Of a stretch of DNA of 26,991 nt, positions 19,616 to 22,291 are shown one piece after another. The DNA is from an uncultured Prevotella sp. (GTDB taxonomy: Bacteria; Bacteroidota; Bacteroidia; Bacteroidales; Bacteroidaceae). Below the pieces are notes generated by a model. The model had not been told where the DNA came from and did not search any database. It was given only the letters and a program-made list of their open reading frames with translations. Positions within the stretch are counted from its first letter, which is position 1. Each line of letters begins with the position of its first letter. Made by a program: the position numbers and the translations under genes. The stretch is taken from NCBI GenBank assembly GCA_934219025.1, contig CAKQDG010000022.1, forward strand, positions 1 to 26,991, in the 5' to 3' direction.

Positions 19616-21001
19616 ATGGAACAGGTATTCAGTTACATTATCAGTCTGGGAGCAAGCGTGATGATGCCTATCATCTTCACGGTTATCGGACTATGTATAG
19701 GAATGAAATTTGGCAAAGCCCTCAAGTCGGGACTCTTTGTAGGTGTAGGTTTTGTAGGTCTGGGTGTTGTAACGGCATTGCTCACTACAAACTTCAACGA
19801 CCCGCTGAAAGGCATATCAGATATTTATCATCTGCAGTTGAGCGTTTTTGACATGGGTTGGCCGGCAGCAGCTGCCGTTGCCTATAACACTGCCGTGGGC
19901 GCACTCATCATTCCAATCTGCCTCGGTGTGAACTTCCTGATGCTCATCACAAAGACCACCCGCACGGTGAATATCGACCTGTGGAACTACTGGCACTTTG
20001 CGTTCATCGGAGCCGTGGCATATTTCGTGATGGGCGAGAGCCTCGTTTGGGGATATTTCGCAGCCATCGTGTGCTACATCATCACTTTGGTATGTGCCGA
20101 CCTCACGGCAGAGCGATTCCAGAAATACTACGACCTTGAGGGAATTTCCATCCCACAGCCGTTCTGCCAGAGCTTCATGCCGTTTGCCATTGTTATTGAC
20201 AAGTTGCTGAATCTTATCCCCGGCTTCTCAAAGCTCGATATCGATGCAGAGGGACTGAAAAAGAAATTCGGCGTGCTCGGCGAACCGCTTGTTCTCGGAG
20301 TAATCGTGGGTATGCTTATCGGTTGGGCAGCAAAGCTCGACATAAAGAAAATACTGTTCCTCGGTGTTACCATGGGAGCCGTGATGGAGCTCATCCCGCG
20401 TATCACCTCGCTCTTTATCGAGGGACTGAAACCAATCTCGGAGAAGACACAGGAGTTGGTAAAGAAGAAATTCAACGGCAAGAAGGTGCATATCGGTATG
20501 AGTCCGGCACTCGTTATCGGACACCCTACAACGCTCGTTGTTTCAATCATCCTTATCCCTGTAATTCTCGCGTTGGCAGTATTCCTGCCCGGCAACCAGT
20601 TCTTGCCTTTGGCATCGCTCGCCGGCATGTTCTACCTGTTCCCAATGGTGCTGCCGTTTACCAAGGGTAATGTGGTGAAGACACTTGTAGTAGGACTTGT
20701 GGCTCTGATTATAGGATTGTATTTCGTTACCGACATGGCACCCGATTTCACAATGGCAGCCCAGCACGTGTTTGAGGCAACAGGCGACAAGGCAGCCGAG
20801 ATACCGCAGGGATTCTCAGGCGGTGCCCTCGACTTTGCATCTTCGCTTTTCGGTTGGCTCATCTACCGCGGCGTGAAGCTCGAATATATCGGTATGGGAG
20901 TGCTTGCCATCGTCACCCTCGCCCTGATGTTTATCAACAACAGACGGATCGTGAAGGAGGAGAGAATGGCAAATTCCGTAAGCAAAGAAAATAATGACTA
21001 A
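19616..21001 (+). CDS. gatC: GatC-like PTS permease (galactitol IIC family), orphan
   Basis: 461 residues with 10-12 hydrophobic segments from the N-terminus (YIISLGASVMMPIIFTVIG) to the C-terminus (YIGMGVLAIVTLALMFI). Motifs characteristic of the GatC/SgcC group include FDMGWPAAAAVAYNT and NFLMLITKTTRTVNIDLWNYWH, plus FIEGLKPISE. In enterobacteria IIC works with IIA and IIB proteins that phosphorylate the sugar during uptake. No IIA, IIB, EI or HPr gene lies in the window, and the protein is not fused to such a domain. I infer that here it may be a secondary transporter. It is first in a transcript with two very small membrane proteins and the exported KduI, which points to a uronate or related sugar acid as substrate. 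The substrate is not proven, and the gene name refers to homology only. Confidence 0.88.
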   Translation: MEQVFSYIISLGASVMMPIIFTVIGLCIGMKFGKALKSGLFVGVGFVGLGVVTALLTTNFNDPLKGISDIYHLQLSVFDMGWPAAAAVAYNTAVGALIIPICLGVNFLMLITKTTRTVNIDLWNYWHFAFIGAVAYFVMGESLVWGYFAAIVCYIITLVCADLTAERFQKYYDLEGISIPQPFCQSFMPFAIVIDKLLNLIPGFSKLDIDAEGLKKKFGVLGEPLVLGVIVGMLIGWAAKLDIKKILFLGVTMGAVMELIPRITSLFIEGLKPISEKTQELVKKKFNGKKVHIGMSPALVIGHPTTLVVSIILIPVILALAVFLPGNQFLPLASLAGMFYLFPMVLPFTKGNVVKTLVVGLVALIIGLYFVTDMAPDFTMAAQHVFEATGDKAAEIPQGFSGGALDFASSLFGWLIYRGVKLEYIGMGVLAIVTLALMFINNRRIVKEERMANSVSKENND

Positions 21002-21203
21002 AGAGGAGAAAGAACGGGTAAGGAAGGAGAAAATTGCTTCTTTTTTCTTTGATTTGGGGAAACTCACATTTGCTGCAGCCGTGTTGGGAGGCATGACCCC
21101 ATTGCTCTCAAAAAACAGTCTGCAGGATTGGTTAGGCGTATTTCTGGGAATTGTAGTAACAATAGTATTCGCAAAATTAGGTAATAACATTTTAAAGCAA
21201 TAG
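20994..21203 (+). CDS. Small membrane protein (DUF6722-like)
   Basis: 69 residues; the ATG overlaps the end of the permease gene by 8 bases, so translation is likely coupled. The N-terminus is highly charged (TKEEKERVRKEKI), followed by two hydrophobic segments (FFFDLGKLTFAAAVLGGM and WLGVFLGIVVTIVFAKLG). The FFFDLGKL motif followed by a GG-containing helix recalls DUF6722 proteins of Bacteroidales; that family label is from memory and moderately sure. The overlap with the permease and the position before kduI suggest a role as a permease partner; no catalytic residues are visible. Confidence 0.75.
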   Translation: MTKEEKERVRKEKIASFFFDLGKLTFAAAVLGGMTPLLSKNSLQDWLGVFLGIVVTIVFAKLGNNILKQ

Positions 21204-21206
21204 ATT

Positions 21207-21317
21207 ATGACAACTTTATCATTTTTCTTCATACTTTGCTTGATTTGGGGCGTAGGTATGCTTATATGGCTCGATACACCAAGTGGCAAGAGATGGCTTA
21301 ACGGCTCAGATAAATAA
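21207..21317 (+). CDS. 36-residue single-helix membrane microprotein
   Basis: MTTLSFFFILCLIWGVGMLI-type sequence: one membrane helix (~4-22) and a short polar tail ending RWLNGSDK. It starts three bases after the previous stop codon and ends 17 bases before kduI, so it is tightly packed in the cluster. Too short for automatic gene calling, but its spacing, clean helix and charged C-terminus support it. It may be a small subunit of the permease; this is inference. I know of no described family for certain. Confidence 0.62.
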   Translation: MTTLSFFFILCLIWGVGMLIWLDTPSGKRWLNGSDK

Positions 21318-21334
21318 CAATATAAAATATAATA

Positions 21335-22291
21335 ATGAAAAAAATAATCTTATCAGCAGCTCTTGCTGCAACAGCTGTTTGTGCCAACGCACAGACAGAC
21401 TACAAAATCCAGACGGCATGCAATCCGCAGGATGTGAAGACCTACGACACCAACCGTCTGCGCAGTGCTTTCACTATGGAGAATGTGATGGAGGCAAACA
21501 AGATCCACTTCACTTATTCTATGTACGACCGCGTTGTCTTCGGCGGCGCGATGCCTGTGGGCGAGGTGTTGAAACTCGAAACCATCGACCCGCTGAAGGC
21601 TCCATACTTCTGCTATAACCGCGAGCTGGGAATCATCAACACCAGCAAGGGAATAGGTGTCGTGACAGTAGACGGCAAGCAGTATGAACTGCACTTCAAG
21701 GATGCCCTCTATGTGGGCCGCGGCTCAAAGGATATCACCTTTGCCAGCAAGGATGCGCAGAATCCTGCAAAGTTCTATCTGAACTCTACAACAGCCCACA
21801 AGGCTTATCCAACGCAGATGATTGTTTGCAACGATGCAGCCCGTGCAAAGAAGCTGAAGTGCTTGAACTCCAACAGCTTCCATGCCGGAAAGATGGAGGA
21901 GAGCAACGACCGCATTATCAACCAGCTCATCGTGAACAACGTGTTGTCAGAGAAGAACGGCGGTAAGGGCGGTCCGTGCCAGCTCCAGATGGGCTTGACA
22001 GAGCTTGCTCCAGGTTCCGTTTGGAACACCATGCCGGCCCACACCCACGAGCGCCGCGTTGAGGCTTACTACTATTTCAATCTGCCCGAGGGCAACACCA
22101 TCGCCCACTTCATGGGTGAACCACAGGAGACCCGTGTGCTCTGGCTGCACAACGAGCAGGCTGTGATGTCGCCGGAGTGGAGCGTGCACTGCGCTTCAGC
22201 CACAAGCAACTACATGTTTGTATGGGGCATGGGCGGCGAGAACCTTGACTATGGCGACATGGACAAGATTCCGTATGTAGACATGAAGTAA
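21335..22291 (+). CDS. kduI: 5-keto-4-deoxyuronate isomerase with signal peptide
   Basis: KduI converts 4-deoxy-L-threo-5-hexosulose uronate, released from unsaturated pectin or glycosaminoglycan sugars, to 3-deoxy-D-glycero-2,5-hexodiulosonate. 318 residues; E. coli KduI has 278. The zinc site is complete: HTHERRVE gives His236, His238 and Glu243, and PEWSVH gives His285, with exactly the spacing of E. coli His196/His198/Glu203/His245. The conserved end ENLDYGDMD also fits. The unusual part is the N-terminus: MKKIILSAALAATAVCANAQ is a textbook type I signal peptide, and the conserved domain starts after it (YKIQTACNPQDVKTYDT). The protein should be exported to the periplasm. The cupin fold is otherwise unaltered. 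It is last in the gatC-like transcript and is followed by a terminator. Confidence 0.95.
   Translation: MKKIILSAALAATAVCANAQTDYKIQTACNPQDVKTYDTNRLRSAFTMENVMEANKIHFTYSMYDRVVFGGAMPVGEVLKLETIDPLKAPYFCYNRELGIINTSKGIGVVTVDGKQYELHFKDALYVGRGSKDITFASKDAQNPAKFYLNSTTAHKAYPTQMIVCNDAARAKKLKCLNSNSFHAGKMEESNDRIINQLIVNNVLSEKNGGKGGPCQLQMGLTELAPGSVWNTMPAHTHERRVEAYYYFNLPEGNTIAHFMGEPQETRVLWLHNEQAVMSPEWSVHCASATSNYMFVWGMGGENLDYGDMDKIPYVDMK

Follow-up and report, generated by a model that had tools for sequence, protein, structure and literature searches.

Why would an isomerase of uronate breakdown carry an export signal, and what could a phosphotransferase system (PTS) permease transport when it stands beside that isomerase without phosphorylating partners? 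The question is raised by a 26,991-bp stretch of DNA from an uncultured Prevotella sp. (contig CAKQDG010000022.1, positions 1 to 26,991; the whole stretch is called the window here), which encodes on its forward strand an orphan GatC-family IIC permease of 461 amino acids (gatC, 19616..21001) and, downstream of it, KduI, the 5-dehydro-4-deoxy-D-glucuronate (DHU) isomerase (kduI, 21335..22291), whose 318 residues include a predicted signal peptide. A preliminary description of this locus had proposed isomerization in the periplasm followed by uptake without phosphorylation, and co-occurrence across genomes, absence of PTS proteins, and the compartments of neighboring enzymes all lend support to such a pathway. 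We consider it probable that exported KduI converts DHU in the periplasm to 3-deoxy-D-glycero-2,5-hexodiulosonate (DK-II), which GatC would then import in unphosphorylated form.

KduI has an intact metal site and a predicted signal peptide

The KduI protein of the window scored 366 bits against the NCBIfam model NF002091 (cut-off, 250; E = 1.2e-109), thus passing the curated threshold of the family, and its His-His-Glu-His metal site is intact at His236, His238, Glu243, and His285, as the preliminary description had read it. These ligands are near-invariant in a 217-row KduI alignment in which some genes are counted twice: of the 115 signal-peptide rows, 114 have His238 and all have the other three ligands, while the 102 rows without a signal peptide have all four.

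Residues 1 to 19 (21335..21391, forward strand) read as a signal peptide, MKKIILSAALAATAVCANA-Q, with a predicted cut at ANA-Q; KduI signal peptides were called by a simple rule, three of the calls being changed on visual inspection. Relatives came from a KduI scan of 80 loci, whose best match was Prevotella pectinovora (KduI, 93%; GatC, 94%), and, because these loci had been selected by their likeness to the window, the test was repeated in a sample of 201 genomes drawn at the family level around P. pectinovora, a family that we take to be the Bacteroidaceae of GTDB. In this sample, every GatC-linked KduI copy begins with basic residues followed by a hydrophobic core and a likely cut site (that of locus L157 judged by eye); in 64 of 69 exported copies, the residue behind this site is Gln. 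Gln after the cut is the Bacteroidetes Q-rule for type I (SPI) signal peptides, according to the accessible text of PMC5837995, and the window protein fits this pattern with its Gln at +1, consistent with the type I signal peptide claimed for it earlier.

That this N terminus is not a working signal peptide, and that KduI is an ordinary cytoplasmic enzyme with nothing unusual about it, is very improbable. The export calls do rest on a simple rule and on inspection by eye rather than on SignalP, but the GatC-linked copies are uniformly signal-peptide-like, most with the Gln described above, whereas KduI from genomes without GatC begins at the enzyme core; moreover, in the alignment with a solved close relative, 9kd0 (7e-139), residue 2 of that structure corresponds to the mature Gln, directly behind the predicted cut. 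Altogether, the sequences give good support to export of KduI, and the enzyme is predicted to be active in the periplasm. A publication behind structures 9kd0 and 9kcz was not found in literature searches, and an AlphaFold model of KduI built from one sequence was discarded (pLDDT, 30).

Exported KduI is paired with GatC across genomes

In the 80 loci of the KduI scan, GatC was also present in 41, and in none of those whose KduI starts at the enzyme core (MKTNYE-type). The 201-genome sample contained GatC in 67 genomes and KduI in 115, with KduI N termini read in 114 of the latter (that of G215 is truncated). Exported KduI occurred in 67 genomes, exactly the 67 with GatC, and GatC was found in 0 of the 47 genomes with cytosolic KduI only; the co-occurrence check suggested in the preliminary description therefore came out in its favor (Fisher p = 4e-33, a value that ignores kinship among the genomes). 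In 57 of the 67 GatC genomes, exported KduI was the only type found; the other 10 carry both types, with only the exported copy adjoining GatC. Incomplete assembly may account for the lack of a second KduI, many of these genomes being drafts or metagenome bins; the named strains P. pectinovora, Duncaniella muris, and Phocaeicola paurosaccharolyticus have one KduI each. Three further genomes (G021, G022, and G025), first reached via cytosolic KduI, have a second, exported KduI beside GatC.

The two genes are neighbors in 65 of the 67 genomes; they lie on different contigs in G204, and in G032 gatC runs up to the end of its contig. The spacing of gatC and kduI, measured in 104 rows among which a few loci are counted twice, has a 32-bp median and is 148 bp or less in 98 of these rows, so that the window, with a 333-bp gap filled by small open reading frames (ORFs), is an outlier. 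A phylum-wide survey of 296 genomes found GatC over the cut-off in 2, both of which belong to the 201-genome sample as well. The pairing is thus well supported, and gatC and exported kduI appear to form a conserved module. Given that GatC occurs only where KduI is exported, the simplest inference is that the permease carries the product of the isomerase, DK-II.

We regard it as unlikely that KduI is exported while GatC carries some other compound (DHU, or galacturonate or tagaturonate) and DK-II enters by a different carrier, for example, the major facilitator superfamily (MFS) transporter next to kduI in Bacteroides. A GatC that carried DHU should occur with cytosolic KduI, at odds with the 0 of 47 above, and although an MFS gene does follow kduI in 15 of 81 clustered loci and in an annotated B. 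finegoldii record, and the cargo of GatC is something we infer, 26 of the 41 GatC loci (some of them shortened by contig ends) showed no such gene, nor did the window.

GatC is an orphan PTS-family permease in hosts that mostly lack HPr

The window permease matched PF03611 with 256 bits, its sequence and fold placing it in the EIIC-GAT family, whereas its 390 bits against the galactitol IIC model TIGR00827 fall below the 542-bit cut-off and leave it outside the galactitol-specific group. In this it differs from the galactitol PTS permease GatC, solved for Leminorella grimontii (9u82), and from UlaA. A second difference lies at position 296 (Ser296 codon, 20501..20503, forward strand), which is occupied by Asp in 12 of 12 PTS-linked relatives and by Ser (97) or Thr (4) in the 101 aligned orphan GatCs. 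Asp314 of UlaA is a substrate contact, as given in the available part of PMC6048161; an equivalence of Ser296 with this residue was considered and could not be established; the L. brevis protein first labelled UlaA-like matched GatC and did not match any UlaA chain.

None of the flanking window genes scanned encodes IIA or IIB, in agreement with the earlier description of the permease as an orphan. Among 26 related genomes, HPr was found in none and IIB over the cut-off in none, IIA not being searched for; in the 201-genome sample, HPr was present in 5 genomes and IIB over the cut-off in 6, namely, the same five plus G169, which has a partial match at the cut-off. HPr was absent from 65 of the 67 GatC genomes, which, with the lack of IIB over the cut-off in the 26, is a further difference from the galactitol PTS permease and UlaA. 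The set of HPr, EI, and IIB that marks a PTS-dependent permease was not found in the 26 genomes, and the absence of PTS partners that had been put forward as a check holds for HPr (0 of 26 genomes and 2 of 67 GatC genomes) and for IIB (0 of 26).

An orphan GatC as such is already known. In the accessible text of PMC6281302, a galactitol-IIC homologue (TC 4.A.5.1.4), one in 5 of 7 Bacteroides strains that have no PTS phosphoryl-transfer proteins, is described as non-PTS and as a possible secondary carrier, its gene is called monocistronic, and that text names neither substrate nor partner. This protein is probably of the same family as the window GatC; in contrast to a monocistronic gene, gatC in the loci studied here usually lies about 32 bp before an exported kduI. 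Passage of unphosphorylated sugars has precedents in the portions seen of two other sources: a mutant GatC of E. coli lets glucose into cells deleted for ptsGHI (PMC12089948), and xylose passes in unphosphorylated form through GalABC, a related PTS permease (PMC10989795). The GatC of the module may likewise act as a secondary active carrier, rather than a channel, and would presumably be coupled to ions. A GAT-family IIC beside rbsK and rpe on a Staphylococcus aureus plasmid (L229:2992-4371) is another possible PTS-free IIC.

Neighboring enzymes suggest that the KduI substrate arises outside the cytoplasm and its product is used inside

Among the genes beside exported kduI are those for a KduD/DhuD-like SDR reductase, a KdgK-like PfkB kinase, and KDPG aldolase or, in Bacteroides, for an MFS transporter together with a pectinesterase and a hydrolase of the GH88 family; pectinesterases, the IIC, kduI, and MFS appear in the annotated B. 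finegoldii record. When N termini of proteins in these loci were read by eye, no signal peptide was seen in the SDR/KduD-like (14), PfkB/KdgK-like (12), and KDPG-aldolase (5) proteins, while the GH88 (7) and pectinesterase (7) proteins had one, in most cases with a Gln right behind the cut. In 12 genomes with exported KduI only, there were 54 GH88-family matches; 30 of these genes were read, and a loose rule called an export signal in 28. Export of these hydrolases argues that DHU, the substrate of KduI, would arise outside the cytoplasm, with the enzymes acting on its product predicted to lie inside. Beside the KduD-like gene, a DUF4861 protein is encoded in five loci (L004, L014, L027, L042, and L043), with an export signal in L004, L027, and L042.

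We propose that exported GH88/GH105-family hydrolases would release unsaturated uronate from lyase-cut fragments of pectin (or glycosaminoglycan) and that this uronate would open to DHU. The Sec pathway would deliver KduI to the periplasm, where the enzyme would convert DHU to DK-II; GatC, working as a carrier without phosphotransferase proteins, would take up DK-II in unphosphorylated form, and KduD, KdgK, and KDPG aldolase would complete the pathway in the cytoplasm. Formation of DHU by periplasmic GH88 is a feature shared with glycosaminoglycan breakdown in Bacteroides as presented in the accessible text of PMC6994673. A possible pectate lyase, a beta-helix protein with a Pel9A-like profile match, is encoded on the reverse strand of the window (2545-4713) and could supply unsaturated galacturonate.

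E. coli KduI has a side activity on saturated hexuronates. It is conceivable, and in our judgment quite improbable, that the exported enzyme mainly isomerizes these compounds (galacturonate to tagaturonate, glucuronate to fructuronate), with GatC importing the ketouronates. The pectin context of the loci (pectinesterase, GH88) would suit such a role, and saturated galacturonate may arise in the periplasm, but the neighbors in many loci belong to the DHU branch (KduD-, KdgK-, and KDPG-aldolase-like).

The module shares its enzyme family, metal ligands, and kind of pathway neighbors with the KduI-KduD/DhuD pathway for DHU in Dickeya, E. coli, and the kduI-dhuD clusters of Bacteroidota (PMC12838403), and departs from it in the export of its isomerase and in the pairing of this enzyme with an orphan IIC. 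The main text of that 2025 survey of kduI clusters contains 0 occurrences of the terms signal peptide, PTS, and permease. Term searches of two studies of expression on pectin (PMC4769552 and PMC11784079) returned no kduI and no galactitol permease. No report of an exported KduI was recognized among the matches listed, a search that most subscription papers fell outside of, so exported KduI is apparently unreported within that scope.

Observations at variance with DK-II import by GatC

Several observations weigh against the proposed role of the module. On a 150-protein KduI tree, no more than two changes are needed to explain the signal-peptide state, one of them being the doubtful L036, and the association with GatC therefore reflects very few independent evolutionary events. 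Four loci (L024, L029, L048, and L054) have a signal-peptide KduI and no GatC in the flank, which is the part of these genomes that was covered; in L028, the contig ends too near for GatC presence to be judged. An export signal was also called on GH88-family hydrolases where KduI is cytosolic (12 genomes; all 30 genes read, of 84 matches), and DHU or its precursors must therefore enter by some route in those species; in Bacteroides, the MFS transporter adjoining kduI could be the importer. With regard to the PTS, one EI match barely over the cut-off, with an interrupted frame, was obtained among the 26 genomes, the only set searched for EI; G032 and G058 carry, in addition to GatC, HPr beside IIB as a separate PTS on another contig, and G169 has the partial IIB match mentioned above. 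Lastly, the Staphylococcus IIC of L229, with no IIA or IIB annotated beside it, keeps Asp, so the Ser/Thr change is not needed in every orphan IIC, and Glu258, tried as a mark of PTS-free IIC proteins, was rejected; it is invariant in the orphans and present in one PTS-linked IIC as well.

Two side observations concern these loci. The signal-peptide KduI genes without a flanking GatC stand beside SusD/GH43 (L024), GH88-DUF2264 (L029), or a 6-phosphogluconate-dehydrogenase-like gene (L048 and L054). On the contig of L036 (623-3813), labelled Lentisphaerae, GatC and KduI lie about 900 bp apart and the KduI start is ambiguous, which may indicate spread beyond Bacteroidota or mis-binning.

Layout of the locus

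The order on the forward strand is gatC, a 69-amino-acid ORF, a 36-amino-acid ORF, and kduI, with coordinates and strand as the preliminary description had placed them. The start of the 69-amino-acid ORF (20994..21203) overlaps the end of gatC; this small membrane protein has 20 relatives, all in PF20482/DUF6722, and is a genuine relative of that family. The 36-amino-acid ORF (21207..21317) is small and hydrophobic. Two small membrane proteins had been noted between the main genes, and both ORFs are indeed present; neither was found in the 80 related loci, and they are therefore local and lie outside the conserved module, of which they were rejected as parts.

A terminator-like stem-loop, a consensus match only, lies directly 3' of kduI (22321..22349, forward strand); a scan of the region for stem-loops gave 6 matches against 3.4 expected in shuffles. 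Because gatC and kduI share a strand, are separated by short gaps, and are followed by this stem-loop, their cotranscription is likely. The module is flanked upstream by a type IX secretion cluster and on the other side by a mechanosensitive channel gene on the opposite strand. The secretion cluster, directly upstream, encodes in order PorP/SprF, a GldK-like protein, GldL, GldM, and GldN (12498-18567); a beta-barrel gene follows GldN, and the cluster with this gene included spans 12498-19282.

Implications

On balance, we lean to the view that about one-third of the sampled family genomes have moved a step from a central uronate pathway across the inner membrane and that a PTS permease, no longer served by phosphorylation partners, now acts as a carrier dedicated to DK-II, marked by the Asp-to-Ser/Thr change. 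If this is true, the orphan GatC of gut Bacteroides, which lack a phosphotransferase system, would acquire a function, and the GAT permease family a new substrate and mode of transport; a PTS permease would prove convertible to a stand-alone carrier, with a residue signature to go with it. An inner-membrane step would be named for uronates from pectin, and perhaps from host glycosaminoglycans, closing a gap in otherwise well-mapped gut glycan pathways. Models that place KduI in the cytoplasm would be wrong for many gut and rumen species, which would isomerize first and then import, an alternative to the strategy of their relatives, which import and then isomerize.

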